From contig NZ_RBWE01000001.1 of NCBI RefSeq assembly GCF_003627965.1, positions 878,607 through 938,423 of the forward strand: a stretch of 59,817 nucleotides of DNA, in the 5' to 3' direction. The notes beneath the pieces were generated by a model. The model had not been told where the DNA came from. It ran no database searches and worked only from the letters and a program-made list of their open reading frames with translations. Every line of letters starts with the position of its first letter. Within the stretch, counting starts at the first letter, position 1. Below are positions 7,839 through 36,684 of the stretch, piece by piece. This DNA comes from Desulfofundulus salinus (lineage in GTDB: Bacteria > Bacillota > Desulfotomaculia > Desulfotomaculales > Desulfovirgulaceae). Position numbers and translations under genes: made by a program.

Positions 7839-7839
7839 C

Positions 7840-8682: not shown

Positions 8683-8710
8683 GAATCGGATGAAAAAAGG
8701 AGGACTTAAA

Positions 8711-9475
8711 GTGGGAAAAAATAAGTGGCTTTCTTTGTTACTGGGTTTTGTCTTTGCGCTGGCCATCCTGGCCGGCTGCAGTTCCAGTGGTGGTACGGAA
8801 CAGGAGCCTGCCTTTACCTACGCCATGTCCGGGCAGTACCGTCCTTTTAACTACTTCGACGAAAACAACCAGCTCACCGGGTTTGACGTGGAAATTGGCC
8901 GGGCCCTGGCTGAAAAGATGGGCATGAAGCCCGTGCCCATTGCTACACCCTGGGAAGGATTGATCAGCGGCTTAAAGGCGAAAAAGTACGATGCCATCCT
9001 TGGCAGTATGACCATCACGCCGGAAAGGCAAAAGCAGGTGGACTTTTCCGATCCCTATTACGTTTCCGGCCCCCAACTCTTTGTGCGCGGCGATTCCTAT
9101 ATTAAGGGTATCCAGGACATAAAAAGCAACACGCCCGTGGGTGTGCTGATCTCCAGTGTTTACGACCAGGAAGCCCGGAAATATACCAAAAACATCAAGA
9201 ACTACACCAGTGATGTGACCGCCCTGCAGGATCTGGCCCGGGGACGGGTGGAAGCGGTAATTACCGACCGGTTTGTGGGTACAATTGCCGCCCGCGAGCA
9301 AAAGCTGGACATCAAGCCGGTGGGAGATCTGCTTTTTGTTGAAAACGTGGGCATAGCCTTTCGCAAGGGCGACCCGCTGCGGGAAAAGGTAAATCAAGCG
9401 CTGGAAGAAATCAAGGCTGACGGGACCTACCTGGCCATCAGCAAGAAATACTTCGGCACCGATATAAGTAAGTAG
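8711..9475 (+). CDS. Amino-acid ABC transporter substrate-binding lipoprotein
   Basis: This family 3 periplasmic-type binding protein (about 254 residues) has a lipoprotein signal with lipobox LAGC. The core shows FNYFDENNQLTGFDVEIGRAL and MTITPERQKQVDFSDPYY, the pattern of polar amino-acid binders. GTG at 8711 is chosen because AAAGGAGG lies 7 nt before it; an ATG at 8690 would put that site inside the gene. It is followed by matching permease and ATPase genes and preceded by the kamA-ablB pair, so lysine or a beta-lysine derivative is a reasonable but untested ligand. Confidence 0.9.
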   Translation: MGKNKWLSLLLGFVFALAILAGCSSSGGTEQEPAFTYAMSGQYRPFNYFDENNQLTGFDVEIGRALAEKMGMKPVPIATPWEGLISGLKAKKYDAILGSMTITPERQKQVDFSDPYYVSGPQLFVRGDSYIKGIQDIKSNTPVGVLISSVYDQEARKYTKNIKNYTSDVTALQDLARGRVEAVITDRFVGTIAAREQKLDIKPVGDLLFVENVGIAFRKGDPLREKVNQALEEIKADGTYLAISKKYFGTDISK

Positions 9476-9532
9476 TGTTGTTTTTACTCCGGTGCGCTGC
9501 CCGGATAGACATCACTTGCGGGAGGACGCAAA

Positions 9533-10183
9533 ATGGACTTCTTACACTACCTGGTAACCTCCATACCCTTTTTTATCCGGGCTGCTGCGGTTACGGTGGA
9601 ACTTACCGCTACCGCCCTGGCCATGGGCATGGTTATTGGACTGGTGTTTGCCCTCATGAAAATATCCGGGCGCAGATTCTGGCGTTATATCGCCGACACG
9701 TATATTACCGTCATTCGCGGCACCCCCCTCATTGTACAGCTCTTTGCCATTTATTTTGGCCTGGCTACCATTGTGGACTTTGGCAGCTTCTGGTCGGCGG
9801 CCATCGCTCTGGCCGTGCATAACGGCGCTTACATTGCGGAGATTTTTCGCGGCGGTATTCAATCCATTGACCGGGGACAAATGGAGGCCGCCCGTTCCCT
9901 GGGCATGAGCTACGGCCTGGCCATGCGCCGCGTTATATTACCCCAGGCCTTTAAGCGGGTCGTACCTCCTTTAGGCAACCAGTTTATTATCGGTTTAAAG
10001 GATTCATCGCTGGCCGCCTTCGTAACTATGAAAGAGTTGTTTGGTGTTTCCATGCAATTGGCTTCCACCCACTTTGCGGAGCTGCAATTTTATACCATCG
10101 CCGGCCTGTATTACCTGGCCCTGGTTGTTCTCTTTACCTTCCTGGTCAACCGCCTGGAACGCCGTTTGAAAGTAGAAAGTTAA
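9533..10183 (+). CDS. Amino-acid ABC transporter permease
   Basis: The 216-residue inner-membrane protein has about five TM segments and the HisMQ-type EAA loop ([20 protein letters not shown]), which docks on the ATPase. A single permease probably forms a homodimer. GGGAGGACG precedes the ATG. It sits between its binding protein and ATPase. Confidence 0.92.
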
Positions 10184-10196
10184 GGGGGAAGGGGAA

Positions 10197-10925
10197 ATGA
10201 GCCTGGTCAAGGTGCGCAATCTCAATAAGTGGTTTGGTCGCCTGCATGCCCTCAAGGACGTCAACCTGGAGGTGCGGGAGGGGGAGGTGGCGGTGCTGAT
10301 CGGGGCCAGCGGTTCCGGCAAAAGCACGCTGCTGCGCTGCTTGAATTTCCTGGAACGGCCCGAACAGGGCCAGGTTATATTTGACGGTAAAGTGATTGAT
10401 CCCCGGCAGGATGACCTCAATCTTTTACGCCGGGAGGTAGGCATGGTCTTCCAGCATTTTAACCTTTTTCCCCATATGAGCGTGCTGGAAAATATTATCG
10501 AAGCACCGGTCATGGTGAAAAAGGTGCCCAGGGGAAAAGCCATAGAAGAAGCACTGGCCCTGTTGCACAAGGTGGGGCTGGCCGATAAGGTGGACGCCTA
10601 CCCCTGTCAGCTTTCCGGCGGGCAGCAGCAGAGGGTGGCCATTGCCCGTGCCCTGGCCATGCATCCCCGGTTGATGCTTTTTGATGAGCCCACTTCAGCC
10701 CTGGATCCGGAGCTGGTGGGGGAAGTGCTGGCGGTGATGAAGCAACTGGCCCGGGAAGGCATGACCATGGTCGTGGTGACCCACGAAATGGGCTTTGCCC
10801 GGGAGGTAGCGGACCGGGTAATCTTTATGGATGAAGGGCGGATTGTGGAAGAAGGAGAACCGGCCCAGATTTTCAGCCGGCCACAAAAGAGCCGCACCAG
10901 GGATTTCTTGAGCAGGGTCCTGTGA
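10197..10925 (+). CDS. Amino-acid ABC transporter ATP-binding protein
   Basis: This 242-residue ATPase has Walker A (GASGSGKST), the signature LSGGQQQR, Walker B with [14 protein letters not shown] and the H-loop [10 protein letters not shown]. It is the GlnQ/HisP type and completes the importer. It starts 13 nt after the permease stop with GGGGGAAGGGG upstream. A strong terminator follows. Confidence 0.95.
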
Positions 10926-10954
10926 AATTTCACTTCATTCCCCACCACCTTCAT

Positions 10955-11003
10955 AGAAAAACTCCCTTTGCAGGCCAATTTGCGAAAGGGGGTTTTTCTT
11001 TGT
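10955..11003 (+). terminator. Rho-independent terminator ending the kamA-ABC operon
   Basis: AGAAAAACTCCCTTTGC pairs with GCGAAAGGGGGTTTTTCT, an extended stem with a single mismatch and a 10-nt loop, followed by T residues. Confidence 0.88.
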
Positions 11004-11033
11004 TTAATTAACTTTTTAAAAAATCCCCGACCA

Positions 11034-11063
11034 GTCATATCTTTCCTGCCGGAAAAATACCTT
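11034..11063 (+). promoter_or_regulatory. Candidate sigma-E sporulation promoter for ytrH-ytrI
   Basis: GTCATATCT resembles the sigma-E -35 (GTCATATT), and AATACCTT 13 nt later resembles the -10 (CATACANT). It lies about 30 nt before the ytrH ATG. B. subtilis ytrH is sigma-E dependent, which makes the match more credible. Confidence 0.45.
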
Positions 11064-11094
11064 TGTTATAAACTTGTCCCGGGAGTGATCCGGC

Positions 11095-11421
11095 ATGGAG
11101 ACGTTTCTCAATAAGATGGTGTTGATTTATTTTACGGCTCTGGGCATTCTGCTGGGGGCATCGCTGGTAGGATCCCTGGCTGCCGTTCTGGTTCGGGAAC
11201 CGCCGGTGATCACCATGCTTAAACTGGCCCGGGATATTAAGATCTGGGCCATTGCCGCCGCCATCGGGGGCACCTTTTCTACCTTTGAAATCTTTGAAAG
11301 CGGGCTTTTCCAGGGAGAGGTGCGTGCGGTGATCAAGCAGCTTTTTTACATCGTCAGTGCCCTGGCCGGCACTCAGACGGCCCATTACCTGATTCTGGCC
11401 CTGTGCGGAGGTAATAAATGA
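11095..11421 (+). CDS. ytrH: YtrH family sporulation protein
   Basis: This 108-residue membrane protein has about three hydrophobic segments and the family pattern (ALGILLGASLVGSLAAVLVR, then IKIWAIAAAIGGTFSTFEIFESGLF). YtrH is a mother-cell sporulation protein needed for robust spores. It overlaps the next gene by 4 nt (ATGA), the conserved ytrH-ytrI order. It supports a spore-forming host. Confidence 0.88.
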   Translation: METFLNKMVLIYFTALGILLGASLVGSLAAVLVREPPVITMLKLARDIKIWAIAAAIGGTFSTFEIFESGLFQGEVRAVIKQLFYIVSALAGTQTAHYLILALCGGNK

Positions 11422-11912
11422 AAGCTCGCTTGCTGGCGGCCTTGTTAATTGGAATGCTTTCAGGCGGTGCCCTGGTTAATGCCCTGCTGGGACAGCAGGT
11501 AGACCGGTTGACCCTGGTCAACAACGAGCTGCAGGAAAAGCTGGCGGCCACGGAAAAGGAATTGCAGCAGGTAAAAGAAAATTTGGCCAGCCGCCGTCCT
11601 CAAACCATTACTGCCCTGGAGGTTAACGTCACGCTGGTCCAGGAAAAGGAAATACCCGGGTTGGATCAGGCCAGGGCCCGCCTGGTTATAGAAAATCACG
11701 TGCGGGAATGGCTGCATCCTTTACTGGGGCAGGAGTTGAGCCGTCTGGATCACCTGCTGATCCCCCGGGTGGTGGACCGGCGCCAGGTGGATGTAGACGG
11801 GAGAAAGTATGTGCTGGGAGTAAAACTGGTGGTAGTGGCAGAGCGGACAATTATTTACCTGGAAGCGTTGCCCCAAAAGAACGTCTATGCCCCCGGGATG
11901 TCCCCGCAATAA
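11418..11912 (+). CDS. ytrI: Sporulation membrane protein, YtrI-like
   Basis: The 164-residue protein has one N-terminal membrane anchor (residues 5-25), a coiled coil (about residues 28-58: LTLVNNELQEKLAATEKELQ) and a small soluble domain. This anchor-coiled-coil layout and the overlap with ytrH fit YtrI, although sequence conservation in YtrI is low. The name therefore rests largely on context. Confidence 0.72.
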   Translation: MKARLLAALLIGMLSGGALVNALLGQQVDRLTLVNNELQEKLAATEKELQQVKENLASRRPQTITALEVNVTLVQEKEIPGLDQARARLVIENHVREWLHPLLGQELSRLDHLLIPRVVDRRQVDVDGRKYVLGVKLVVVAERTIIYLEALPQKNVYAPGMSPQ

Positions 11913-12029
11913 AAAGCTTATCCTTACCCTGTAGGGTATTCTATTTTTGTCTATCTAATGTCCGCTGTTAAATCTTCCTCCCTGAAAAAAAGAGACACCT
12001 CCCTAAAAACCTCCCTAAAAAGCTGAGTT

Positions 12030-12274
12030 ATCCCCACTTTCCAACTACCCTGTTTTGGCTCCCGCTCGCTCCGGTGAGCCTCGCGGGCCAAACTAGTGCT
12101 CGGCTCAAAGCTCCGGCAGGCTTCCGGCAAATTCGGCATCCTGCCTCAGTTGCCGGCCTCGGGCATCCATGCCCTCGGGCCTGCCTTCGCTTTTCGCCTC
12201 GCCAAGTTTGGCTGGCCGCTCGGCTCAAGTCGCTCGCTTCCGAGCCAAAACAGGGGCTTTAAAAAACTGGGGAT
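12030..12274. repeat. 245-bp GC-rich element with terminal inverted repeats
   Basis: ATCCCCA(C/G)TTT outer ends and perfect inner arms CCCTGTTTTGGCTC (12048-12061) and GAGCCAAAACAGGG (12242-12255) bound a block rich in short palindromes. No convincing gene lies inside it. It looks like a non-autonomous repeat or intergenic structured element. It fills most of the 11913-12496 gap. Confidence 0.5.
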
Positions 12275-12294
12275 ACTTCAGCCCTAAAAAGGTA

Positions 12295-12323
12295 TTGACA
12301 GAGCGGGTGGCGCGTGCTAATCT
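12295..12323 (+). promoter_or_regulatory. Sigma-A promoter for the iron-sulfur/cytochrome/Tat operon
   Basis: A perfect TTGACA is 17 nt from TAATCT, which has an upstream TG (extended -10). The leader to the next ATG is about 165 nt; no riboswitch was recognised in it. Confidence 0.72.
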
Positions 12324-12496
12324 AGAATCACCAATACCCCTACGGGTACCCGTTGCAACAACCAGTGACTTTTTATCTTAATCTTGAAGTTTAATTTAAA
12401 TGTATATCTTTGGAAGCGGAAGTCGTCCCTCTCACTTCGGTGCTCCAAACAGGACGAAAACCCGGGTTGTTCAAAAATTTTAAAGGGGGGTAACAG

Positions 12497-13507
12497 ATGT
12501 CTTTGTTATCACGGCGGGATTTTATCAAGCGCACCCTGGCGGCAGGCGTAGCTTCCGGGCTGGTGCTTTCCGGGTTGGGGAAGGCAGCCGAAGGTGCCAC
12601 CATTACCCCCCGGGGGACCTTCTATGATTTAACGAAATGTGACGGCTGCAAGGGATTGAAGGTACCCCGGTGTGTTAGCGCCTGCCGGGAGGAAAACAGT
12701 TTCAAGTTTCCAAAACCAGCCGAACACATCGAATACTACTGGCCCCAAAAGAAAAAAGAAGACTGGCAGGATAAAAAGGACCTGACTACCCGCCTGACGC
12801 CCTATAACTGGACCTTTGTGCAGCATGTGCAGGTAAAACATAATGGCCGCACGGTGGACGTATTTATCCCCAGAAGATGTATGCACTGCGACAATCCTCC
12901 CTGTGCCAACCTCTGTCCCTTTGGGGCTCAGGGCAAGACCCCCGAGGGTCCGGTGATCATCAACCCCAATCTCTGCCTGGGGGGTGCCAAGTGCCGGGAT
13001 GTTTGTCCCTGGGGAATACCCGCCCGGCAGGCAGGGGTGGGACTGTACATGAAGTTAGCCCCCAGGTACGTGGGAGGCGGGGTAATGTACAAGTGCGACC
13101 TGTGCTACCACCGGGTAAAGGAAGGGAAAATCCCGGCCTGCGTGGAGGCCTGCCCCAGGGGTGCCATTGCCTTTGGCGATAAGGAAGAAATGCGGGCTTT
13201 GGCCTGGAAACGGGCCCGGGAAATTGGCGGTTATGTTTACGGGGATAAGGAAAATGGCGGGACATCCACCTTTTACGTTTCGCCGGTGCCTTTTGAACTC
13301 ATTCATGAACAATTGCTGGCCCAAAAGAAGAAGCAGCCCAATCCCACTGCTCCGGGATTTCCCGGCATGCCGGTGGGGGTGGGGAACTTCCTGGATTCGG
13401 TCAACGGTATTGCCGGTGCTTTGCTGGTGGCCCCGCTGGCGGGAACCTTCGCAGCCGGCTATGCGGCCTACAGGACAATGAAGGGGGAGGAAGACCATGG
13501 CGGATAA
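12497..13507 (+). CDS. Tat-exported 4Fe-4S ferredoxin-type redox subunit (FdhB/HybA-like)
   Basis: The 336-residue protein begins with a twin-arginine signal (SRRDFIK, hydrophobic stretch, cut near residue 35). The mature part has four Cys clusters: CDGCKGLKVPRCVSAC, CMHCDNPPCANLC, CLGGAKCRDVCP and CDLCYHRVKEGKIPACVEACP, for several 4Fe-4S clusters. It ends with a hydrophobic C terminus. It would wire electrons between a periplasmic-side catalytic subunit and the cytochrome b encoded next. No molybdopterin or hydrogenase catalytic subunit is in the window. GGGGGG lies before the ATG. Confidence 0.88.
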   Translation: MSLLSRRDFIKRTLAAGVASGLVLSGLGKAAEGATITPRGTFYDLTKCDGCKGLKVPRCVSACREENSFKFPKPAEHIEYYWPQKKKEDWQDKKDLTTRLTPYNWTFVQHVQVKHNGRTVDVFIPRRCMHCDNPPCANLCPFGAQGKTPEGPVIINPNLCLGGAKCRDVCPWGIPARQAGVGLYMKLAPRYVGGGVMYKCDLCYHRVKEGKIPACVEACPRGAIAFGDKEEMRALAWKRAREIGGYVYGDKENGGTSTFYVSPVPFELIHEQLLAQKKKQPNPTAPGFPGMPVGVGNFLDSVNGIAGALLVAPLAGTFAAGYAAYRTMKGEEDHGG

Positions 13508-24796: not shown

Positions 24797-25429
24797 CTAA
24801 TCAACCAGCGAATTCTGATAGGTGAGATCTTCAAACGCTTTAACATGCGTTTTACTTACCCTCTTGCCGAAGCGCACCATCAACATATTGGCCGGATGTT
24901 CCAAAATTTCCGGATCGTCTGTTCCCCGTCTTTTAAAACCTGCGCTTCCGAAAAGTCGGGTCAGCATGCGCTGGTAGCCAAAGGCGTCCAGTCCGCTTCC
25001 CTGCAGATCCCAGTGCCAGTAGAATTCGGTGGTGATGACCACGTAATCCTCCAGCATCTCGTTCTTGAAGGCCTGTTGTAGCAATTCTTTTGCTATGCCC
25101 AGACGTTGCCAGCTCCGGCTGACTTCAATGGCTCCCAGTTCCAGCAGGCGGGGATGCCTGCTCCAACGGGTATATTCACTGGGTCTGTGAAAGAGTACAT
25201 ACCCAATGATTTCTTGCCCGTGCCGGGCAATATACACCAGCCCTTCCGGGTTACCGGCGGCAATCATTAAAGCTTCTTTTTGCCGTACGGGGCTGCGGAA
25301 GTTGCGCAACCGTTCGTTCATAGTAAGAGTAGCAAGGTATTCTTTACTGACAGGCCCTTCAATAAATACCGTACCCTGTGGTGTGGTTAACTGTTTTATT
25401 TCGGTTGTTTTGGTACTAGCAGTTAACAT
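24797..25429 (-). CDS. acuA: Acetoin-utilization protein AcuA (GNAT protein acetyltransferase)
   Basis: The product matches B. subtilis AcuA closely in recalled pattern and in length (210 residues): TPQGTVFIEGPVS, LLELGAIEVSRSWQRLGIAKELL (acetyl-CoA site) and DYVVITTEFYWHWDLQGSGL. AcuA acetylates and inactivates acetyl-CoA synthetase. ATG 25429 is chosen; an in-frame extension to 25525 is AT-rich and lacks an RBS. The usual acuB, acuC and acsA partners are absent here. Confidence 0.9.
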   Translation of the reverse strand: MLTASTKTTEIKQLTTPQGTVFIEGPVSKEYLATLTMNERLRNFRSPVRQKEALMIAAGNPEGLVYIARHGQEIIGYVLFHRPSEYTRWSRHPRLLELGAIEVSRSWQRLGIAKELLQQAFKNEMLEDYVVITTEFYWHWDLQGSGLDAFGYQRMLTRLFGSAGFKRRGTDDPEILEHPANMLMVRFGKRVSKTHVKAFEDLTYQNSLVD

Positions 25430-25588: not shown

Positions 25589-26941
25589 CTAACCGGTGAT
25601 GATACCGTATTTTTGCGCCCGGTATAAGAGGGCCGAGCGGGTAATGCCCAGCAACTGGGCAGCACGAGTTTGATTACCCCCGCTTTTCTGCAGGGCCTTA
25701 ATGATCAGTTCCTTTTCCACCTGTTCCAGGGAGATGCCTTCATCGGGGAAGCGGATCACCAGTTCCTTTTCATTTTGGGGCGTGTTCAAAAGCTCCTTGG
25801 GCAGGTGTTCGGGTAGTATCTCGCTGCCCTGGCAAATAATGGCCGCCCGCTCAATAACGTTCTGCAGTTCCCGGATATTTCCCGGCCAGTGGTAACTGCA
25901 CAACAGTTCCATGGCTGCCGGGGAAATTTTGTTCACCAGGTACTTGGGGCGGAATTTTTCTAAAAAATGGTTGGCTAAAAGAGGAATATCCTCCTTTCTT
26001 TCCCGTAGTGGCGGCAGGTGGATCTGGAACACATTGAGGCGGTAATAGAGATCCTCCCGAAAAAGCCCCTTTTCTATGGCTTCCGTCAGGTTGCGGTTTG
26101 TAGCCGCAATAACCCGCACATCCACATGGATTGTTTCGGTGCCTCCCACCCGTTCGAAGGACATTTCCTGGAGCACCCGCAGGAGCTTGGCCTGCATGGA
26201 AAGAGACATTTCGGTAATTTCATCCAGGAAAATCGTGCCCCGGTCGGCCAGTTCAAAACGGCCCAGTTTACGGGCAGAGGCCCCGGTAAAAGCTCCCTTT
26301 TCATGGCCAAAAAGTTCGCTTTCCAGTAATTGTTCGGGTAGGGCCGCACAGTTAATGGCGACAAAGGGCCCGTCCCGTCGGGGGCTGTTCTGGTGAATGG
26401 CTACCGCGGCCACCTCCTTACCGGTACCGCTTTCCCCGGTAATTAACACGGTGGCATCGCTCGCGGCCACCCGCTCGATCAGCTTAATCACTTCCTGGAT
26501 GGCCGGGCTTTTCCCCACCAATTTGCTGTACTTTTTGGTTAACTCGGAGCGCAGGAAACTAACTTCGGTGGCCAGCTGGGTGATCACCAAGTTTTGCTTG
26601 ATAACCATTTTCAATTCATCCAGGTCGAAGGGCTTGGTGATGTAATCTGCCGCCCCGATTTTCATGGCCTCAATGGCCGTCTCAATGGTACCGTGGGCGG
26701 TGAGAATAACCACCGGGATTTTAGGCTGCATTTCCCTGGCCTTGCGGAGTACATCCATCCCGTCCATCTCGGGCATTTTTAGGTCCAGAATTACCAGGGA
26801 AGGTTGTTCCTCGCGGATTAGTTCCAGTCCTTTTGACGGGGAGGTGGTGGACAACACATGGTAGCCTTCCTGTTGCATGGCCCGTTCCAGTGCCCAGCAA
26901 AGATGCTGTTCGTCATCAATGATTAGAATTGTTGGTACCAT
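25589..26941 (-). CDS. Sigma-54-dependent response regulator (NtrC family)
   Basis: The 450-residue protein has a receiver domain (phospho-acceptor Asp53 in ILDLKMPEMDG), an AAA+ domain with Walker A GESGTGKE, the sigma-54 contact loop GAFTGA, Walker B GTIFLDEITEM, and a Fis-type helix-turn-helix at the end (GGNQTRAAQLLGITRSALL). It activates sigma-54 promoters when phosphorylated by the overlapping kinase gene. A candidate sigma-54 promoter and two palindromes lie beyond the kinase gene, reading away from it. Confidence 0.95.
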   Translation of the reverse strand: MVPTILIIDDEQHLCWALERAMQQEGYHVLSTTSPSKGLELIREEQPSLVILDLKMPEMDGMDVLRKAREMQPKIPVVILTAHGTIETAIEAMKIGAADYITKPFDLDELKMVIKQNLVITQLATEVSFLRSELTKKYSKLVGKSPAIQEVIKLIERVAASDATVLITGESGTGKEVAAVAIHQNSPRRDGPFVAINCAALPEQLLESELFGHEKGAFTGASARKLGRFELADRGTIFLDEITEMSLSMQAKLLRVLQEMSFERVGGTETIHVDVRVIAATNRNLTEAIEKGLFREDLYYRLNVFQIHLPPLRERKEDIPLLANHFLEKFRPKYLVNKISPAAMELLCSYHWPGNIRELQNVIERAAIICQGSEILPEHLPKELLNTPQNEKELVIRFPDEGISLEQVEKELIIKALQKSGGNQTRAAQLLGITRSALLYRAQKYGIITG

Positions 26942-28469
26942 GGTTAGCCCCTCCTGTTGGATCCATTATGGGTAGGCATACGGTAAAGGTGGCTCCTTTT
27001 TCACTGGATGTTACATCAATGTTTCCGCCATGGCTGGCGACGATCTGGTGGCTTATGGACAGCCCCAGTCCGGTTCCGTCTTTCCGGGTAGTATAAAAAG
27101 GATCGAAAATCCGTGAGATTTCCTCACTGGCAATTCCCGGGCCGGTGTCGCTGAACTGGATGTATACGTGGTTGTTATCGGCGTAGGTTTTGATGGTTAA
27201 CCTGCCTCCGTTGGGCATGGCCTGGACGGCATTCAGGATTAAATTGACAAACACCTGTTTAATGCGTTCTCCGTCCACTTCTATAAGCGGGATGTCCGGA
27301 TCCTTTTCTACAGTTAACTGTACTTGATGTTGCCTTAGCAGGGGAGTGGTAAAGGTAAGCACTTTATCCAGCAGGGAATTTACCGACGCGGGATGGACGA
27401 AATTTTTCGTCGGCCGGCCGAAATCCAGCAATTCCTGGATGATTCTGTTCTGCCGGTCGATTTGTTCTTTTATGATATCGGTATACTGCCTGATATCGTG
27501 TACGTCCTTTAAGTCCTGCTCCATCACCTGGATGATGGTTTTAACAACGGAAATGGGGTTGCGCAATTCATGGGCGATGCCGGTTACCAGGCGGCCGAGG
27601 GCGGCCAGACGTTCGGACCGGTGCAGTTGCTCCTCCAGCTTTTCTTTTTCTGCGATGGAGCGGGCCATGCGGTTGATAGCCCGGGCAATTTGACCGGCTT
27701 CCCCTGGGAGATCCGGAAGCAAGTGGTTCAAATCCTTCTCCAAATGGCCCAGCCCTTCCTTAATCTGATTTACAGACCTGACGAGATTATGGACTAAAAA
27801 CAGGACCCCTCCGGTGCAGGCAAAGAAAACAAACAGGGTCACATAGCGGGAGATAAGGCGAAAGTAGCGGCTCTGGGCAAAGATGGGATGCAGGCGTTCA
27901 TCTACCCACGCCACCGCCACCAGCTTGCCGTCAATAATTAGAGGTGTTAGATATTCAAAGGTTTCATCATTTAAACTGGTAGTCAAGCGGGCCAGGGGAC
28001 GCTGGCTGGCCACTACCGCCATCAACCCCGAATCGGCCTCATTCAAAATGCGTCTTTCCCTTTCCCGGCTTTCCTGGGGTGAAAGCTGGCGGTACTCGTG
28101 GAGAAAACCCTGCACGAAAATTTGTTTACTATCGGGCAAATAAAGGCCAAACCTGACGCCGGGATAGTTGGGCACCAGGGGGGCGGTGACCTCGGCAAAG
28201 CTGGCCTGCAGGTAACTGGCCTGGCTTTCGGGATTAAGGTTTGTAAATTTCTCGTCCCTCAGTTTTTTTTGCAGGGTTTCTTTCAGGCCGGGGACAACCT
28301 GCTTGTGCAATAAAGAGCCAAGGCGCTCCTCCAGGGAGGAAATCATGGCCTCTTCGCTTTTGGTGGCAAAGATAAGGTCGTAAAGCAGCAATAAAACCGG
28401 AATCAGCAGTAGCACCACAGTGATAGCCATAATTTGAAAGCGCAAACTGCGCCAGCTGACCCTCTTCAT
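26916..28469 (-). CDS. Membrane sensor histidine kinase partnered with the NtrC-type regulator
   Basis: About 517 residues: a TM segment near the N terminus, a roughly 180-residue extracytoplasmic sensor region, a second TM, a HAMP-like linker, HisKA (GIAHELRNPISVVK) and HATPase (NLILNAVQAMP, then DGTGLGLSISHQIV). Its 3' end overlaps the regulator start by 26 nt. ATG 28469 has GAGGGAGAG just upstream; TTG 28508 is the longer alternative. The signal is not evident, although nearby target genes are TauE/SafE exporters. Confidence 0.92.
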   Translation of the reverse strand: MKRVSWRSLRFQIMAITVVLLLIPVLLLLYDLIFATKSEEAMISSLEERLGSLLHKQVVPGLKETLQKKLRDEKFTNLNPESQASYLQASFAEVTAPLVPNYPGVRFGLYLPDSKQIFVQGFLHEYRQLSPQESRERERRILNEADSGLMAVVASQRPLARLTTSLNDETFEYLTPLIIDGKLVAVAWVDERLHPIFAQSRYFRLISRYVTLFVFFACTGGVLFLVHNLVRSVNQIKEGLGHLEKDLNHLLPDLPGEAGQIARAINRMARSIAEKEKLEEQLHRSERLAALGRLVTGIAHELRNPISVVKTIIQVMEQDLKDVHDIRQYTDIIKEQIDRQNRIIQELLDFGRPTKNFVHPASVNSLLDKVLTFTTPLLRQHQVQLTVEKDPDIPLIEVDGERIKQVFVNLILNAVQAMPNGGRLTIKTYADNNHVYIQFSDTGPGIASEEISRIFDPFYTTRKDGTGLGLSISHQIVASHGGNIDVTSSEKGATFTVCLPIMDPTGGANHGTNNSNH

Positions 28470-28516: not shown

Positions 28517-28532
28517 TGTCTGAAAACAGACA
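28517..28532. promoter_or_regulatory. Candidate upstream activator site 1
   Basis: TGTCTGAAAACAGACA is a perfect palindrome with a 4-nt centre. It lies about 185 bp upstream of the predicted sigma-54 start and next to an NtrC-type regulator operon. Confidence 0.5.
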
Positions 28533-28594
28533 CCGGTTTCCCTTTGGTAATTAACTTCACAATCTCTTTTTTGCTCACTGGTTAGAACCCCAAC

Positions 28595-28610
28595 TGTCTG
28601 TTTTTAAACA
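28595..28610. promoter_or_regulatory. Candidate upstream activator site 2
   Basis: TGTCTGTTTTTAAACA keeps the left half of site 1 and four of six bases in the right half. It lies 78 bp from site 1, about 105 bp before the predicted start. Confidence 0.4.
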
Positions 28611-28673
28611 AAACCCATCCCATGTTGAGAGGCGAAACCTGCTTTTTTCCGGGCATAACAGGCTGGTACGAAA

Positions 28674-28689
28674 AATGCAAAACCGATTA
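28674..28689 (+). promoter_or_regulatory. Candidate sigma-54 promoter
   Basis: TGGTACGAAAAATGCA matches the -24/-12 consensus TGGCACG-N4-TTGCA at 14 of the defined or free positions, with the invariant GG and GC exactly 10 nt apart. It reads toward the 28853 gene and the TauE/SafE operon. Confidence 0.55.
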
Positions 28690-28852: not shown

Positions 28853-29524
28853 ATGGTGGAGAGAGATATGTTGCAACTTTTTAATCGCCGCAAGGAAGAG
28901 TTCTTAAAAAAGATCACCCAACAGGCCACGGAAGGCAAGGGGGAAAAGGCCGGTGTAATGCGCGAGCTCAAAAAATTTCTGGACTGGTTCGAGTTCTGGT
29001 TGCAGAGCGAGGAAAGCATTGATATAGAACATGCTACTCCCGCCCCCGAGGAAAAAAACTTCGACCAATTTTTAGACGAAGTGCTGGCCGAGACCAGGCG
29101 CATCCTGGCGGAACAAAACGTCGAGGTGACATACACTTTACCCGGGCAAAACCTGGGGATCAGCGAGTCCTGGAAGTGCGTAAAGGTATTTGGCAACAAC
29201 GATATTTACTACCGCATTGGCCGGACCCGGCCGCGGAAAGGGCCCTACCAGGGCCGGGAGCTTTTAGTTATCGACCTGGTTATGGATGGCTATAAAAAGC
29301 AGGTTTTTCTGCCCCTTTTGGAACTGAAGGCGGAAATTGAAAAGCGCCTGGGGGCCGTGCTGGAAAGGGAACTGCCCAAGGTGGAGGCGACCGGCAAATA
29401 CCGGCTGAAAGTGATCCTGCCCTATGAAGTTGTACGCAGGGGCGATACCCGGCTGGCGGCACGCAAGTTTGCCGACTTCATTGCCGTAACCAAGCCGTTA
29501 ATTAACAGGTTGGGCATTCGATGA
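28853..29524 (+). CDS. Conserved-looking protein of unknown function, possible sigma-54 target
   Basis: The 223-residue soluble protein has an N-terminal helical half, with Glu/Lys-rich segments to about residue 90, and a C-terminal alpha/beta half with YYRIGRTRPRKGPYQGRELLVIDLVMDG and LPYEVVRRGDTRLAARKFADFI. I do not recognise the family. There are no membrane segments. It is the first gene after the candidate sigma-54 promoter and precedes a TauE/SafE exporter by 213 nt. Confidence 0.72.
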   Translation: MVERDMLQLFNRRKEEFLKKITQQATEGKGEKAGVMRELKKFLDWFEFWLQSEESIDIEHATPAPEEKNFDQFLDEVLAETRRILAEQNVEVTYTLPGQNLGISESWKCVKVFGNNDIYYRIGRTRPRKGPYQGRELLVIDLVMDGYKKQVFLPLLELKAEIEKRLGAVLERELPKVEATGKYRLKVILPYEVVRRGDTRLAARKFADFIAVTKPLINRLGIR

Positions 29525-29737: not shown

Positions 29738-30691
29738 ATGCTTGATTGGTTGGCTACCTTTACAGGGGGCGGGCTGGCGGCTAAAGCGACCGCAGCCGTG
29801 ACCACCACTGGAGCGGCGGTAAGCACGGCTGCCGGGACCCCGGGTATGCCCTGGTGGGTGTGGCCGCTGCTCCTGTTTATTACCACCTTTGTGTTGGGTA
29901 TTGTGGCCGTGCTTGGGGGTGTAGGTGGCGGTGTTTTGTTTGTTCCCATCGTGGGCAGCTTTTTTCCCTTTAACCTGGACTTTGTCCGCGGGGCGGGCCT
30001 GCTGGTGGCCCTGGCCGGGGCGTTGGCGGCAGGACCGGGCCTTTTAAAACTTAACCTGGCCAACCTGCGCCTTGCCCTGCCGGTGGCTTTAATTGCATCC
30101 ACCTTCAGCATGGTGGGAGCGTTTATCGGCCTGGCCCTGCCCAACAACGTGGTGCAGACCGCTTTGGGTATTACCATCGTGCTCATTGCCATTTTATTCG
30201 TAGTTTCAAAAAACACGGAGTTTCCCCAGGTAGGAGGAAGCGATAAGCTGGCCCGGTTTTTAGGAATAGGGGGCACCTATTACGAACGTTCCTCTGGTAA
30301 AACCGTAGACTGGTCGGTATGGCGGACGCCACAGGGTTTCCTTTTGTTCATCGCTATCGGGATCATGGCCGGCATGTTCGGCCTGGGTGCCGGGTGGGCG
30401 AATGTGCCGGTGCTGAACCTGCTCATGGGTGCACCACTTAAAGTAGCAGTGGGCACCAGCAAGTTCCTCCTCTCCATTACCGATACGTCGGCGGCCTGGG
30501 TCTATTTAAACCAGGGTGCTGTGCTGCCCGTTATTGCCGTGCCTTCCATCGTGGGCATCATGTTAGGTTCCTTCGTTGGGGTGCGGTTGCTGGCCACGGC
30601 CAAGCCCAGGGCCGTAAAATACCTGGTGATCGTTTTGCTCCTGGCTGCCGGGCTGCGTTCACTGCTCAAGGGCCTGGGGATCTGGAACTAG
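29738..30691 (+). CDS. Sulfite exporter TauE/SafE family permease (TSUP)
   Basis: The 317-residue membrane protein has about eight TM segments in two halves. The first half holds VLGGVGGGVLFVPIV, and the second repeats the theme with GMFGLGAGWANVPVLNLLMGAPLKVAVGTSK. TSUP proteins export sulfite, sulfoacetate or other organic anions. CTGGAGGG precedes the ATG. A small three-TM protein follows 26 nt later, a common accessory arrangement. Substrate not determined. Confidence 0.92.
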   Translation: MLDWLATFTGGGLAAKATAAVTTTGAAVSTAAGTPGMPWWVWPLLLFITTFVLGIVAVLGGVGGGVLFVPIVGSFFPFNLDFVRGAGLLVALAGALAAGPGLLKLNLANLRLALPVALIASTFSMVGAFIGLALPNNVVQTALGITIVLIAILFVVSKNTEFPQVGGSDKLARFLGIGGTYYERSSGKTVDWSVWRTPQGFLLFIAIGIMAGMFGLGAGWANVPVLNLLMGAPLKVAVGTSKFLLSITDTSAAWVYLNQGAVLPVIAVPSIVGIMLGSFVGVRLLATAKPRAVKYLVIVLLLAAGLRSLLKGLGIWN

Positions 30692-31320: not shown

Positions 31321-31641
31321 TTAGCGAATGAAATAATTCACAAGGCCGTACAGGCAAAGGGCGGTGGGGATGGACAGGGTAAACACGGGCAAGAGAAGCT
31401 GCCAGCGGTTAACCCGGGCATCTTTTTCCGCCCGCACAGCGCGGGAAATTTCAATTTCGGCAAAGGGGCGGCTCAACTTTTTTTCCCACGTGCCAAAAGG
31501 CGGTAGCCCCGGATGGTCCGGGAGAGGGAAATTCCGGAGCGGTTCGTAAAGGTAGATGATATTCCGCTGGTGGTAAGTGGCGGACATCCCGTCGGGCCGT
31601 TTTTTATTTCGCTGTTGATTGCCTTTCGGCGGCCAGTACAT
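31321..31641 (-). CDS. Small membrane-anchored protein downstream of the second TauE/SafE gene
   Basis: ATG 31641 gives 106 residues: a basic N terminus (PPKGNQQRNKKRPDG), a Pro-rich middle and one C-terminal TM segment (WQLLLPVFTLSIPTALCLYGL). The longer in-frame reading to 31707 overlaps the upstream permease. I recognise no family. Its closeness to the permease (16 nt) suggests an accessory subunit. Confidence 0.55.
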   Translation of the reverse strand: MYWPPKGNQQRNKKRPDGMSATYHQRNIIYLYEPLRNFPLPDHPGLPPFGTWEKKLSRPFAEIEISRAVRAEKDARVNRWQLLLPVFTLSIPTALCLYGLVNYFIR

Positions 31642-31657
31642 CGCCCTCGCCCCCTTC

Positions 31658-32647
31658 TTAAAGACTTTTAAAGTTTTGCGGCATATTGTCGCGGGGTAAC
31701 GCATCATTCCAGCGTACCTGGCAGAGGGAGATTAAGGTAAAGCCGAGCATGGTGACCAGGGCCGACCCAAACATGAGCGCGGTGGTATAAAAGGGGGCCA
31801 GGCTAGCCGCCCGGCTGCCCAGCAGCACCACGGCGGAGCTTAATCCCCACCAGGCCAGGAAAATGCTTTCCTCCGGGTTTTGTAATTTCTCCCGCCGGAG
31901 ATGCCACGCGTAGATGTAACCGGCCAGATAGCCGGCGCCGAGGCTCATGAAGGTTAACCTTGCTCCGGAAAAAGTGGACAGGTCGGGAAGGAAGATAATC
32001 GCGGCAAAGGCCCCGATCAAATACAGGGTAAAAGAAGCGGTGGCCCGAGCCTGCCGGCGGGATAAACCTGTCAGGTACATCAAAAGCGGTTCCAGCAGGG
32101 CACGGGTGTTTAATCCGGCCAGGCCTGTACAAAGACCGATGGATCCACCAACCAGGCTTACCCGGCCTACCGTGATGTACTTTGGAAATGGGAGCCCCGG
32201 TGTAGCAAGGGGGTATCTCCAGAATAAACCGCCCGGTGGGAGCGGGTTTTCGTCCTCGTAGCCGAATTGGCAGTAGTGGCGATAACGGCGGGCAGCGATA
32301 AGGGCGGTGATGACCAGAACGGTGCTGTATATGAAAACGAGGATTGCCGCACCTGCCGGCAGGGTGCTGAGCCGGAGAAGGAGTTGCTTGCCGGTCACCA
32401 TAAAGGGCAGGGATAAAATGGCCAAGGTCATGCCCAGCCGTTTGTAGGCATGCCGGGTGATTTCAGGGTGGTATATTAACTTTAGTTTACCGGCTGCATT
32501 GAGGAGAATGCCGCTGCCTACGGCTGTAGGTAGGGGCAGGCCGGTAATAATCAGCAGGGGGACGGTAAACAACTGGTAAGCAGGACCGCCAGCGCGATAT
32601 AAAAATCCTCCGGCAAAACCGATCGAGAAAAAGATGGCCGGGATCAT
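31658..32647 (-). CDS. TauE/SafE family permease, second copy
   Basis: The 329-residue membrane protein has about eight or nine TM segments, with AGGFLYRAGGPAYQLFTVPLL in the first half and GLCTGLAGLNTRALLEPLLMYLTGL in the second, a divergent TSUP pattern. It is not a close duplicate of the 29738 gene. It converges with it and is controlled by its own promoter with CRP/FNR-like sites at 32700-32796. Confidence 0.85.
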   Translation of the reverse strand: MIPAIFFSIGFAGGFLYRAGGPAYQLFTVPLLIITGLPLPTAVGSGILLNAAGKLKLIYHPEITRHAYKRLGMTLAILSLPFMVTGKQLLLRLSTLPAGAAILVFIYSTVLVITALIAARRYRHYCQFGYEDENPLPPGGLFWRYPLATPGLPFPKYITVGRVSLVGGSIGLCTGLAGLNTRALLEPLLMYLTGLSRRQARATASFTLYLIGAFAAIIFLPDLSTFSGARLTFMSLGAGYLAGYIYAWHLRREKLQNPEESIFLAWWGLSSAVVLLGSRAASLAPFYTTALMFGSALVTMLGFTLISLCQVRWNDALPRDNMPQNFKSL

Positions 32648-33038: not shown

Positions 33039-35075
33039 ATGATCGCGCCGTTGCCGCCCTGCAGTGCCAATTGTCCGGTTAATACCGATGTGCCCGGTTA
33101 CCTGGCCGCCATAGCCCGGGGAGATTATCAAAAGGCTGCCAGGCTGATCCGGGCCAACAATACCTTTGCCTCGGTATGTGGCTGGGTTTGTCCCCATCCC
33201 TGCGAAGATCATTGCCGGCGGGGACAGGTGGATGCCCCGCTATCGGTACGGGCGTTAAAGAGGTTTGCCCTGGAAAAGGCCGGGGGAGAAAGTCTTTTTC
33301 CCGATAAGCCGACTGCGCAGTCCCTTCCTTACCGGGTGGCCATAGTGGGGGCTGGTCCGGCGGGACTGACCGCAGCCTGGGATCTGGCAAGAGCCGGGTA
33401 TACCGTGACGGTATTTGAGCGCCAGCCCGAGGCCGGGGGACATTTATATGCTTCCCTGCCCACCTATCGCCTGCCCCGCCGGGTGGTGAGGGAGGATGTG
33501 GGGCGCATCGCCGCTGCCGGCGTGGAGATACGTACCGGGGTAGAGATTGGCAAAGATGTTTCATTAACCGACCTGCAAAAGGAATACGATGCGGTAATCC
33601 TGGCCGTGGGCCTTTCTAAAAGCCGGAGCTTAAACCTGCCGGGGTTTGATCATCCCGATGTCCTGCTGGCCCTGCCCTTCCTGCAGGGGACCAACCTGGG
33701 CCGACCGGTGAACATTAAAAAAAGGGTGATTGTCATTGGTGGGGGCGATGTTGCCATGGACGTGGCCCGGACCGCCCTGCGCCTGGGGGCTCAGGAGGTA
33801 CGGGTGGTTTGTCTGGAGACCTGCGACATTATGCCCGCCCACCCATGGGAGGTAAAGGAAGCCCAGGAGGAAGGGGTAGAACTCTGCGCCGGATGGGGAC
33901 CCGTCCGGGCGGTGGTGGAGGAAGGGCTGGTTCAGGGGTTGGAAGTTAAAGGGGTGTTATCGGTTTTTGATGAACAGGGTTGTTTTAACCCCACCTTTGA
34001 TGAAGGCAGACTCTCATTTGTTCCCGGTGAAATGATCATTCAGGCCATCGGGCAGTGTGCCGATCTTTCGTGCCTGGCGGACAGTCCGGTGGCGGTAAAC
34101 GAACGGGGCCAGCTAATGGTGAACCGGGATACCCTGGAAACCAGCGTGTCCGGGGTATTTGCCTGCGGGGAGGTGGCCTGTGGTCCCGGCCCGGCCATTG
34201 CCGCCGTGGCCAGCGGCCACCGGGTTGCCGCTGCAGTGCGGGCTTATCTGGAAGGAGTATCCCTTCCGGCCGGTAACGTAGCAACCATCGGTGAGTTGCC
34301 AGAACGGGTACGCACCCGTTTGCCGTCCTTTGCCAGACAGGAAATACCCGTACTTCCTGCCGACCAGCGCCGGTATTCCTTTGTGGTACAGGAATTGGAG
34401 TTTCCCCCGGTGCAGGCCCTGCGGGAAGCGGAGCGCTGCCTGCGCTGTGGTTTGGGGGCGGAAGTGCTTAAGGAACGTTGCGCCGCCTGCCTTACCTGTC
34501 AGCGGGTTTGTCCCTACGGAGTGCCGGTGGTGGAAGGAAGAGCGAACATACCGGTGGAGGGTTGCCAGGGGTGTGGTATCTGTGCGGCGGCCTGTCCGGC
34601 CGGGGCTATTGTGCTTAAGGGATTGCCGGGGGAAGAAGTGCATGCCCTTTTGGAGGGGGAAAAGGGGCGGGTCGGCGGGGTAAGTTCCGCGACCGATCCA
34701 CCGCTGGCCGTCTTTGTTTGCCAGCGGGCTTATTTCCAGGGACTGGCCCCGGAAGTTATCTCTTCCACCCCGGGGTTGGGGCAGGTCCGTCTGGTTTCCC
34801 TGCCCACGGCCGGCGCGCTGGACCCGCTGTGGTTGCTGAAAGCGCTGGATGAGGGGGCTTTAGGCGTAGCAGTGATCACCTGTGGAGAAAACAACTGCCG
34901 TCATGTCGGTGGGGCTGCCCGGGTCAAGGAGCAATTAAAGCGCTTCCAAAAGTTGCTCGCAGAATTGGGGTACGAACCGTTCCGTTTGCAGTGGCACTGT
35001 TTGGGTGCCGGTGGAGATCCCCTCGCCTGGCTCAGTGAATTTGCCCGGAGTCTTGTACAGGCAAATAAATCCTGA
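33039..35075 (+). CDS. NfnB/GltD-like flavoprotein fused to ferredoxin and MvhD domains
   Basis: The 678-residue protein has four parts. A GltD-type N terminus carries CSANCPVNTDVPGYL and CGWVCPHPCEDHCRRG. An FAD domain (VAIVGAGPAGLTAAWDLARA) and an NAD(P) domain (VIVIGGGDVAMDVARTALRLG) follow. Next are ferredoxin clusters (CAACLTCQRVCP, CQGCGICAAACP). Last is an MvhD-like end (VFVCQRAYF, ITCGENNCRHVGG, LQWHCLGAGG). NfnB parts oxidise NADPH, and MvhD passes electrons to HdrA-type proteins, so it may link NAD(P)H to heterodisulfide-reductase-like partners. GGGGG precedes the ATG. Its end overlaps the opposite-strand kinase by 44 nt. Confidence 0.88.
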   Translation: MIAPLPPCSANCPVNTDVPGYLAAIARGDYQKAARLIRANNTFASVCGWVCPHPCEDHCRRGQVDAPLSVRALKRFALEKAGGESLFPDKPTAQSLPYRVAIVGAGPAGLTAAWDLARAGYTVTVFERQPEAGGHLYASLPTYRLPRRVVREDVGRIAAAGVEIRTGVEIGKDVSLTDLQKEYDAVILAVGLSKSRSLNLPGFDHPDVLLALPFLQGTNLGRPVNIKKRVIVIGGGDVAMDVARTALRLGAQEVRVVCLETCDIMPAHPWEVKEAQEEGVELCAGWGPVRAVVEEGLVQGLEVKGVLSVFDEQGCFNPTFDEGRLSFVPGEMIIQAIGQCADLSCLADSPVAVNERGQLMVNRDTLETSVSGVFACGEVACGPGPAIAAVASGHRVAAAVRAYLEGVSLPAGNVATIGELPERVRTRLPSFARQEIPVLPADQRRYSFVVQELEFPPVQALREAERCLRCGLGAEVLKERCAACLTCQRVCPYGVPVVEGRANIPVEGCQGCGICAAACPAGAIVLKGLPGEEVHALLEGEKGRVGGVSSATDPPLAVFVCQRAYFQGLAPEVISSTPGLGQVRLVSLPTAGALDPLWLLKALDEGALGVAVITCGENNCRHVGGAARVKEQLKRFQKLLAELGYEPFRLQWHCLGAGGDPLAWLSEFARSLVQANKS

Positions 35076-36684
35076 ATTCGCTGCCGGCCCCCTCTTGACT
35101 GTTCACTTCAATCCTCCCGCCGTGGTTTTCAATAATGCGGTAGGATATGGTCAACCCCAGGCCGGTCCCGGCATCCTTGGTGGTGAAAAAGGGTGTGCTC
35201 AGCCGGGATAATATCTCCCCGGACATACCGTGGCCCGTGTCCCGTACCACCAGCAGGATTTCATCGGACTCGGCCAGCCAGCGGGAGATGAGGGTCAGTC
35301 TTCTTACCGGCTGTTCTTCCATGGCCTGCAGGGCGTTGTGAATTAAGTTCAGCAGTACCTGTTTGAGCTGGTCCGGTTGCGCCTTGATGGAGGGTAATTC
35401 CGGGGCAAGATCCGTGACCAGCTCCACCTGGGTCAAAAGGCACTGGCTCTCCACCAGGGGTAAAAGTTCATTGATCAGCCGGTTCAGGTCCACGTTTTCC
35501 CCGTGGGTGGAGTGGGGGCGGGCCAGCACGAGAAAATCACTGATGATTTCATTGGTCCGATCGACTTCCTGGATAATTACATCCAGGTATTCTTTATTTT
35601 TTGCATCCTCCACGCGTTCGCTCAGGAGCTGCGCAAATCCCTTGATGGAAGTAAGGGGATTGCGCAGTTCATGGGCCATGCCGGCGGCCATCTGGCCAAC
35701 CACTACCAGCTTTTCCTGGTTGTGCTGGAGTTCCCGCTGGTGGCGCAGTTCCGTAATATCGTTGAAGACGGTGACCGCGCCGCTAACCCGGCCGTGCCTA
35801 TCCCGCAGGACATCGGAACTGATCAACAGGTAAAAGTCTTTTCCATTAAATTTATACTGTATCTCCAGGGGGCCCAGTGCTTCGCTCCTTTCCAGAGCCT
35901 GCAGAGTAATCAGGTTATTTCTGTCCGTGTGAGGGAAAATATCCCAGATATGACGACCTATGGCACTGGAGACCGCTACTCCGGAGATTTGTTCTGCCGT
36001 CCGGTTAAACATGATTACCCTTCCGGTGGCATCGACGACAATTACTCCCCCTACCATGCGTTCTAAAATTGTATCCGAGGTTTGTTTTAACAGATCGTAT
36101 TTTACTTCGGTGCTGATATCCCGGAAGTAAATAATGATGCCCTCCCGGTTATTTCCCCGCATCAGGGGTCTCGTTTCCAGGGCCAGGTGGATCTGTTCGC
36201 CGTTTTTGCCGGTAATCTCGATTTCCCGGCACAGCAGGAGGGATTCAGGATCCCCACCCGGGGGGCAGCTGGTTGTCTTCTCTTCCTGGAGCCATTGTTG
36301 CAATTCCGTTAATTTTTTTCCTACCACTTCTTCCCGGGTGTATCCCACCAGCTGTTCCCATGTCCCGTTGATATAGCTGATGTTTAGTTCGTTATCCACG
36401 ATCATGATGGCCATGGGGATACTACCCAGAATATCATTGAGGCGGTATTGCTTTTCATGGTTTTCTTTCCGGGGAGGGCCCTGGAGGTGGTACTTGTATA
36501 TAATAAAGGGCAGCAATACGGATGTCAAAAGCAGTAGGGTCAGGCTTAAGACCAGATTTAATATTGTCCCCTGTTCGAGGGTTTTCTCCAGGGCAATAAT
36601 CGTGCTTATATGAAGGATAAGAGAATAGAGTAAAATGGCCAGGGAGGCCGCTATTAAGACCTGGGGCCAGTTCCGCGCAAACAA
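35032..36684 (-). CDS. PAS-domain sensor histidine kinase (NtrB-like)
   Basis: The 550-residue kinase has two N-terminal TM segments (about residues 8-28 and 40-62) with almost no external loop, two PAS domains (about 85-200 and 205-320), HisKA with AAGMAHELRNPLTSIKGF, and HATPase with NLIHNALQAME and DAGTGLGLTISYRI. It probably senses an intracellular or membrane redox cue. The TTG start has AAGGGTGG upstream. No response regulator is adjacent, and its last 44 nt overlap the flavoprotein gene tail to tail. Confidence 0.92.
   Translation of the reverse strand: MFARNWPQVLIAASLAILLYSLILHISTIIALEKTLEQGTILNLVLSLTLLLLTSVLLPFIIYKYHLQGPPRKENHEKQYRLNDILGSIPMAIMIVDNELNISYINGTWEQLVGYTREEVVGKKLTELQQWLQEEKTTSCPPGGDPESLLLCREIEITGKNGEQIHLALETRPLMRGNNREGIIIYFRDISTEVKYDLLKQTSDTILERMVGGVIVVDATGRVIMFNRTAEQISGVAVSSAIGRHIWDIFPHTDRNNLITLQALERSEALGPLEIQYKFNGKDFYLLISSDVLRDRHGRVSGAVTVFNDITELRHQRELQHNQEKLVVVGQMAAGMAHELRNPLTSIKGFAQLLSERVEDAKNKEYLDVIIQEVDRTNEIISDFLVLARPHSTHGENVDLNRLINELLPLVESQCLLTQVELVTDLAPELPSIKAQPDQLKQVLLNLIHNALQAMEEQPVRRLTLISRWLAESDEILLVVRDTGHGMSGEILSRLSTPFFTTKDAGTGLGLTISYRIIENHGGRIEVNSQEGAGSEFRIYLPVQDSGQIH

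Follow-up and report, generated by a model that had tools for sequence, protein, structure and literature searches.

Control of sulfate uptake by a sensor kinase is already in print: in Desulfobacteraceae, kinase-sensed sulfate is proposed to control DASS and SulP transporters together with CBS-domain proteins (PMC11887813; for this and the three papers that follow, we draw on excerpts of the text). TSUP proteins occur in all 44 sulfate reducers examined in a further study, which calls predictions of their function not feasible, counts 3 of the 44 species as having no other candidate sulfate transporter and lists for D. kuznetsovii 0 SulP, 5 DASS, 2 CysP and 10 CysZ/TSUP proteins (PMC5840216). 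Nine sigma-54 operons of Desulfovibrio vulgaris carry TSUP or PSE transporters with no substrate assigned (PMC4641369), and an account of Clostridiales sigma-54 regulons, which quotes the sigma-54 consensus as TTGGCATNNNNNTTGCT, includes the groups XhpR (hyp-memP), of Desulfosporosinus, Carboxydocella and Desulfotomaculum, and XptB (sulT, hyp) (PMC6615313). The sulfate carriers of dissimilatory sulfate reducers, the roles of their TSUP proteins and the way in which these organisms sense sulfate are the questions addressed here. We analysed a 59,817-nucleotide stretch of the Desulfofundulus salinus genome (hereafter the window) together with related loci, and what we find there is, with somewhat better than even probability, a two-component switch that depends on sigma-54 and serves an operon for the transport of a sulfur oxyanion, most likely sulfate, in sulfate-reducing Desulfotomaculales.

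The locus consists of a regulatory gene pair and a transporter operon that point away from each other. On the minus strand, a histidine kinase with HAMP, HisKA and HATPase domains (26916–28469; ATG at 28469, with a TTG at 28508 as the first start in the open reading frame list) precedes an NtrC-family response regulator (25589–26941), downstream of which lies a GNAT acetyltransferase gene (24797–25429, minus; cluster C11) found in 24 of the 54 fetched loci. On the plus strand, the operon encodes P223, a protein of 223 residues (28853–29524), the TauE/SafE (TSUP) membrane transporter TauE1 (29738–30691) and the small membrane protein P160 (30718–31200), a third operon gene that the earlier note had not included. 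TauE1 belongs to the TauE/SafE family by a PF01925 score of 120.2 bits, above the gathering score of 32.6, and searches of its sequence against the PDB returned no match at E values up to 10. P160 is weakly DUF1634-like (E 0.012, below the cut-off) and accompanies TauE1 in all 21 of the clustered loci that hold it. A second TauE/SafE gene, TauE2 (31658–32647, minus), is convergent with the operon here and in several relatives, and the convergent pair that it forms with a 128-residue protein (31321–32647, minus) is kept in the genus. Also conserved in the genus are two convergent genes whose ends overlap, one for a GltD-like flavoprotein that has 4Fe-4S and FlpD (MvhD-type) parts towards its C terminus (33039–35075) and one for a PAS histidine kinase (35032–36684).

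P223 matches no Pfam or NCBIfam family, and a search of its sequence against the PDB found no convincing relative (best E 0.61). Its structural model (mean pLDDT 84) joins an N-terminal helical hairpin to a C-terminal domain, residues 67–222, with the element order α-β-β-β-α-β-β-α found in type III secretion chaperones and YbjN. Type III chaperones fill seven of the top eight rows of the structure comparison, at Z scores of 8.2–9.4 where a best Z of 7–8 is common; identity across these eight rows is 9–16%, and the top match is 1ry9 (Z 9.4, 3.4 Å over 122 residues). Because the best Foldseek E value is only 5.4e-3, the type III chaperone-like or YbjN fold is probable and not certain for the P223 model, and the fold indicates no function. 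What marks P223 out is its company: a TauE-cluster gene is present in 49 of 52 tallied P223 loci, which makes P223 a recurrent TauE companion and extends the earlier description of it as a protein of no known kind, and an NtrC or kinase gene lies in the fetched stretch in 49 of 52 as well (54 loci were fetched; L080 and L084 dropped out of the open reading frame clustering, in which an overlapping frame was kept). The three loci without TauE are L072, on a 3.4-kb contig, L079, and L073, in which a DASS and a CBS protein stand in its place. This tie to TauE genes, taken with the chaperone-like fold, suggests an adaptor role for P223. The operon reads P223–TauE1–P160 in the window and mostly TauE1–P160–P223 in other families of the order, and some P223 loci hold an Alph_Pro_TM protein with TauE.

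Paralogues about 31–42% identical to the P223 of the window belong to modules that comprise a different TauE subfamily, a small membrane protein, CBS-domain proteins and, in most cases, an NtrC/kinase pair of their own. In one genus (L081–L083), such a second module (kinase, NtrC, CBS, small membrane protein, TauE, P223, CBS; flipped coordinates about 900–13000) adjoins an acetyl-CoA synthetase gene, assigned by Pfam for L083, and a LytS/LytTR-like pair recognized by eye. One gene close to these modules is not named ActP here, as its sequence does not resemble one. The genome of the window has a single P223 match, so a second P223/TauE module seems to be absent from it.

The regulator combines a receiver domain, a sigma-54-interacting AAA+ domain in which the GAFTGA motif can be read, and a Fis-type helix–turn–helix, which places it in the NtrC family. 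The earlier label of an NtrBC-type pair therefore holds as a domain type and fails as the name of a system: the regulator scores 485 bits against the ntrC equivalog model TIGR01818 (cut-off 558.6), 534.6 against AtoC (cut-off 714) and 453.6 against ZraR (cut-off 760), and the kinase scores 406.1 against AtoS (cut-off 646) and 220.2 against ZraS (cut-off 479). In a midpoint-rooted tree of 67 regulators, in which several inner nodes are weakly supported, the 21 regulators of paralogous modules (support 1.0) stand apart from the other 46 (0.776). The recognition helix follows the same division: it is near-identical in regulators of TauE, SulP and DASS loci, typically GNQT(R/K)AAQLLGITRSAL, and differs in those of the paralogous modules. 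The sensor of the kinase is its extracytoplasmic part, residues 33–208, modelled as a PAS/Cache-like domain (mean pLDDT 84). Its best solved neighbour is WalK (Z 11.8, 3.7 Å over 132 residues), and many of the neighbours of the model are Cache or CitA/DcuS domains; a search of the sensor sequence against the PDB found no relative, with dynein light chain rows at E 0.29–1.4 taken as chance. The modelled fold would allow a small-anion ligand and does not name one.

In genomes without P223, a related pair (kinase about 46–53% and regulator about 69–74% identical) faces other transporters. At seven loci of one genus (L163, L164, L165, L166, L168, L169 and L173), the pair is divergent from genes for a CBS protein, an HTH/WCX protein (typed for L163) and a SulP transporter, the last recognized by PF00916 at 328–331 bits in L163, L165 and L166 and by clustering in the other four; the SulP of L163 falls just below the TIGR00815 cut-off (368.7 versus 380.45). 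All seven full-length SulP proteins carry the motif PXYGLY, which is absent from the truncated SulP of L167. At three loci of another family (L171, L174 and L176), the pair is divergent from a TauE1–P160–CBS–WCX–TauE–DASS array, with DASS typed by PF00939 in all three and by TIGR00785, above its cut-off, in L174. G055 and G058 have no SulP match apart from the one at this locus, and G057 has one besides it; no SulP was found in the 7 searched genomes (of 9) of the family of the window, nor in G022 and G037, and G026, a TauE/P223 genome, has one SulP, elsewhere. SulP and DASS are families known for import. As these families replace TauE beside a related regulator, uptake is likelier than export. 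The three families (SulP, DASS and TSUP) have bicarbonate, dicarboxylates or sulfonates among their substrates as well.

Other arrangements occur beside related kinases. At L175, the genes that face the orthologous kinase/NtrC pair and its sigma-54 site are membrane genes of the complex-I/Mrp type (PF00361, PF00146) and not transporters of the kinds above. At L170 (G073:C1:86000–100500), TauE, Alph_Pro_TM and CBS genes lie beside an orthologous NtrC/kinase pair and adjoin genes for an AprA-like protein below the cut-off (443 bits) and a 4Fe-4S protein. A more distant kinase class, about 40–43% identical (L178–L181), shares its stretch with a short NtrC-like, receiver-sized protein and, at 3 of the 4 loci, with a TauE gene; upstream of these kinases, no sigma-54 match reaches a score of 10 and palindromes have three mismatches at best.

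The distribution of the kinase family tracks that of aprA. Among 113 genomes of the order, 31 have P223 homologues and 52 have the kinase family; the named P223 carriers are Desulfofundulus, Desulfovirgula, Desulfotomaculum, Desulfoscipio, Desulfallas, Desulfotruncus and Desulfocucumis, with metagenome bins in addition (40 loci). Five bins carrying P223 (L106, L118, L119, L121 and L126) are labelled Actinobacteria, Armatimonadetes or Deltaproteobacteria; these labels look wrong, the order being that of the window. The genome of the window has DsrA and AprA above their cut-offs. Across the order, kinase and AprA occur together in 48 genomes, kinase alone in 4, AprA alone in 22 and neither in 39 (p = 4.5e-4 by shuffling within families), and in the four kinase-only genomes (G005, G032, G052 and G067) AprA is absent, weak or fragmentary. 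For P223 and AprA, the corresponding counts are 30, 1, 40 and 42 (within-family p = 5e-5). The kinase follows DsrA about as tightly as AprA (51, 1, 24 and 37; within-family p = 4.5e-4), and P223 and DsrA give 30, 1, 45 and 37 (within-family p = 0.02). Within genus g16, kinase and P223 are present in all three AprA-positive and in none of the four AprA-negative genomes, with DsrA in all seven; in family f15, the two AprA-positive genomes have both kinase and P223 and the nine others have neither. The aprA association is partly shared ancestry.

Of 75 kinase-family matches in AprA-positive genomes, 10 share a contig with aprA and are no more than 40 kb away from it, compared with about 1.8 expected from random placement, and 6 of these 10 score below 190 bits and belong mostly to the more distant class; in the genome of the window, kinase and aprA are 1.3 Mb apart. 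Sensor-kinase relatives 6–25 kb from aprA, again mostly of the more distant class, are found in G070:C6, G112:C5, G028:C122, G073:C1, G022:C1 and G015:C40. In a phylum sample of 398 genomes, some of them from the order of the window, strong sensor matches outside the order come from two genomes of one genus (G115 and G263), both with AprA over the cut-off, and weak ones (E about 1e-6) from G145 and G221, both without AprA. The loci of G115 and G263 (L201 and L202) have a sigma-54 site before a 214-residue protein of no recognized family, which shows no relation to P223 by profile; no palindrome passed the test and no transporter was recognized at either, and these loci do not help with function.

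Sulfate is the common ground of the exchanged transporter families, and together with the aprA pattern this makes sulfate or another sulfur oxyanion, on the strength of comparative genomics, a fairly probable substrate. The earlier note had suggested an organic-anion or sulfur-compound export module. Its link to sulfur survives in outline, through the SulP and DASS exchange and the aprA association, but export as the default reading does not, as TauE/SafE is a family name and the substitutes beside the same regulator come from import-known families. If export were the function, TauE1 would rid the cell of a sulfur anion (sulfite, thiosulfate or a sulfonate) that is toxic or in surplus and that the kinase senses outside, a reading compatible with the PF01925 assignment of TauE1 and with DsrA above its cut-off in 30 of 31 P223 genomes. 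We regard it as unlikely: a related regulator and its sites precede SulP or DASS elsewhere, an outward-facing sensor is better suited to uptake, and within genus g16 the system tracks aprA and not dsrA.

About as unlikely, and fractionally more so, is a circuit for organic acids, in which a carboxylate would be the signal for the Cache-like sensor and carboxylate transporters would be the target. Among the structural neighbours of the sensor are CitA and DcuS, which sense carboxylates, and Cache domains that bind acetate or formate; DASS, CitMHS-like and some SulP proteins move dicarboxylates; and an acetyl-CoA synthetase gene lies beside the paralogous TauE modules of L081–L083, an acetyl-CoA hydrolase/transferase gene beside P223 in L073. 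Against this, the sensor fold tells nothing of the ligand, the SulP partners carry PXYGLY, and the association with aprA persists within families and within a single genus. We thus favour a circuit that responds to sulfate or a related sulfur oxyanion and in which TauE, SulP and DASS replace one another.

The intergenic region of the window contains the elements expected of such a circuit, and the earlier description of them is confirmed to the base. Direct reading of the plus strand identifies a perfect palindrome, TGTCTGAAAACAGACA (UAS1; 28517–28532, no mismatches), a weaker copy with two mismatches, TGTCTGTTTTTAAACA (UAS2; 28595–28610), 78 bp away centre to centre, and a predicted sigma-54 −24/−12 element, TGGTACGAAAAATGCA (28664–28679), with GG at 28665–28666 and GC at 28677–28678 separated by N10. 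The sigma-54 −24/−12 consensus is TGGYAY..TGC, and the element conforms to it with its GG-N10-GC spacing and is conserved. From these positions a transcript start would be expected near 28690, which puts the centre of UAS1 at about −165 and that of UAS2 at about −87. A single RpoN gene was found in the genome.

A genome scan for exact TGTCTGN4CAGACA, proposed in the earlier note, returned UAS1 as the single copy; looser sites proved not to be specific. The form TGTNTGN4CANACA occurs three times in the genome, compared with none for the reversed control, and the other two copies lie inside open reading frames; one has nothing sigma-54-like within 450 nt, and the other has a lone weak match (10/12) pointing towards the palindrome. 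With up to two mismatches allowed, the genome holds 56 palindromes and 36 matches to the reversed pattern. Among 15 of these 56 sites inspected, several have a sigma-54-like neighbour besides the two of this locus (L006, score 11, upstream of the palindrome; L003, L007, L009, L012 and L015, score 10), and loose palindromes are for this reason not specific. In the window itself, two palindromes with at most two mismatches compare with a shuffle mean of 1.13 and with two or more in 27 of 100 shuffles; judged within the window alone, UAS2 is no more than chance.

Comparison across genomes gives a different result, and conservation there is the reason that the finding exceeds chance. We assembled 44 regions of 700 nt upstream of related kinases, anchored on the aligned kinase start, and searched them for palindromes of the TGT..ACA form with at most three mismatches and for the strict sigma-54 pattern TGG[CT]A[CT]N6TGC. 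The set leaves out kinases below 430 bits (L178–L181) and includes near-identical relatives (the window and L046–L049), so the tallies count loci and not events. The 44 regions contain 79 palindromes, compared with 1.22 expected from dinucleotide shuffles, and 38 of them have a strict sigma-54 site, compared with 0.58 sites in the shuffles. Of 28 regions of the P223/TauE type, 27 have a palindrome, 26 a sigma-54 site, and 22 at least two palindromes upstream of the sigma-54 site. The seven SulP regions have palindromes in six and sigma-54 sites in all seven, the exceptions being L165, with no palindrome, and L166, with one only, downstream of the sigma-54 site. Both elements are present in all three TauE1–DASS regions (L171, L174 and L176). 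The six remaining regions (L167, L170, two of L172, L175 and L177) yielded no palindrome and, in two of them, a strict sigma-54 site, although TauE or DASS genes lie near L170, L172 and L177. Both kinds of site are also visible in the untrimmed upstream regions. Five SulP loci (L163, L166, L168, L169 and L173) have an extra palindrome 148–186 nt downstream of the sigma-54 site.

Spacing is conserved along with the sites. Measured from the T of the −24 element, the UAS starts fall mostly into two bands, one at about −56 to −88 and the other at about −142 to −179, and UAS2 is similarly placed in relatives and is perfect in L049 (TGTCTGTTTTCAGACA). When TGTCTGN4CANACA followed after 38–68 bases by the sigma-54 pattern was sought in the 113 genomes of the order, it appeared in five genomes, always at this locus, in a scan that demands TGTCTG and one spacing range, misses most known loci, that of the window included, and is thus no full regulon search. 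The earlier proposal of a sigma-54 promoter with two activator sites under the divergent pair gains support from the conserved spacing and from the recognition helix of the regulator, and this conservation makes it very likely that it is the divergent pair that drives the operon, by way of two UASs and sigma-54.

UAS1 is close to the kinase gene as well, 47 nt ahead of its ATG at 28469 on the minus strand, so the pair may in addition regulate itself. That the palindromes chiefly serve the kinase and regulator genes, with the sigma-54 site and operon regulated otherwise, would fit this proximity but is very improbable, as in L057, L058 and L060, where the sigma-54 site is 318–538 nt from the kinase, the palindromes keep their places relative to the −24 T, one at about −67 to −79 and the other at about −152 to −174, and so track the sigma-54 site when the kinase distance changes. 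Chance matches to loose consensus sequences, for which the shuffle expectation within the window and the weak sigma-54-like neighbours of some looser genome sites might speak, are the least credible explanation of all, given conservation of the sites across genomes.

The sites and their spacing, their conservation, the domain make-up, the replacement of TauE by SulP or by TauE with DASS and the aprA association are computed; for the ligand, the direction of transport, the role of P223 and activation by phosphorylation, we infer the following scheme. The extracytoplasmic PAS/Cache-like domain of the kinase would sense the ligand, or its scarcity, and the kinase would phosphorylate the NtrC-type regulator, which would bind the palindromes at about −165 and −87 and loop to sigma-54 RNA polymerase at 28665–28678. 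Activation of the polymerase would then drive P223–TauE1–P160. TauE1, perhaps together with P160, would move the anion inward rather than outward, and P223 may act on the transporter from the cytosol, as an adaptor or modulator. The switch thus probably controls sulfate uptake in Gram-positive sulfate reducers. A bolder and much more tentative version has one NtrC/sigma-54 two-component system detect sulfate outside the cell and govern its uptake through different carriers. These would be SulP in one genus and TauE with DASS in another family; in the lineage of the window, a TauE/SafE protein would itself import sulfate, with P160 and P223 as partners, and P223 would represent a new family of adaptors that resemble type III chaperones and are dedicated to TauE transporters. 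One regulator whose UAS can be recognized before SulP, TauE with DASS or TauE alone ties an uncharacterized carrier to known ones, and the locus names the exact genes, sites and signal for testing.

In a literature search that covered few subscription journals, we found no NtrC/sigma-54 version of such control, no TauE exchange under conserved sites and no P223, and, judged by titles and the openings of abstracts, no study of this operon. The nearest relatives in function are the systems of Desulfobacteraceae, which likewise belong to sulfate reducers and pair a sensor kinase with DASS and SulP transporters and with CBS-domain proteins; the sensor is of the Cache type there and modelled as PAS/Cache-like here (PMC11887813). 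The combination of DASS or SulP with CBS proteins is found in relatives within the order, whereas the operon of the window itself holds TauE1. The Desulfobacteraceae regulators are of the WalR type, with no sigma-54 named in the excerpt, in contrast to the NtrC-type regulator, sigma-54 promoter and UAS pair described here; the lineage of the window also differs in its TauE/SafE protein and P223 and belongs to a different phylum (PMC11887813). With D. vulgaris, the common feature is control of TSUP transporters by enhancer-binding proteins in a sulfate reducer; the half-sites TGT and ACA occur there in three groups of motifs and are separated by 9, 11 or 12 bp, compared with 10 here, and the operons belong to another phylum and, in the excerpt, have no mention of a P223 or DUF1634-like partner (PMC4641369). 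Among the Clostridiales regulons, XhpR and 14 other groups have a TGT/ACA inverted repeat with a distance of 10–12 bp, and XhpR has a target in Desulfotomaculum; going by the excerpt, XhpR might be the regulator described here (PMC6615313). P223 differs from proteins of the type III chaperone/YbjN fold in its extra N-terminal hairpin and its own conserved residues, the fold match being moderate. With the activators NtrC, AtoC and ZraR, the regulator shares the receiver, the GAFTGA-bearing AAA+ domain, the Fis helix–turn–helix, the paired kinase and the UAS pair upstream of a −24/−12 element; unlike them, it scores below the equivalog cut-offs, and the operon adjacent to it is a transporter operon.
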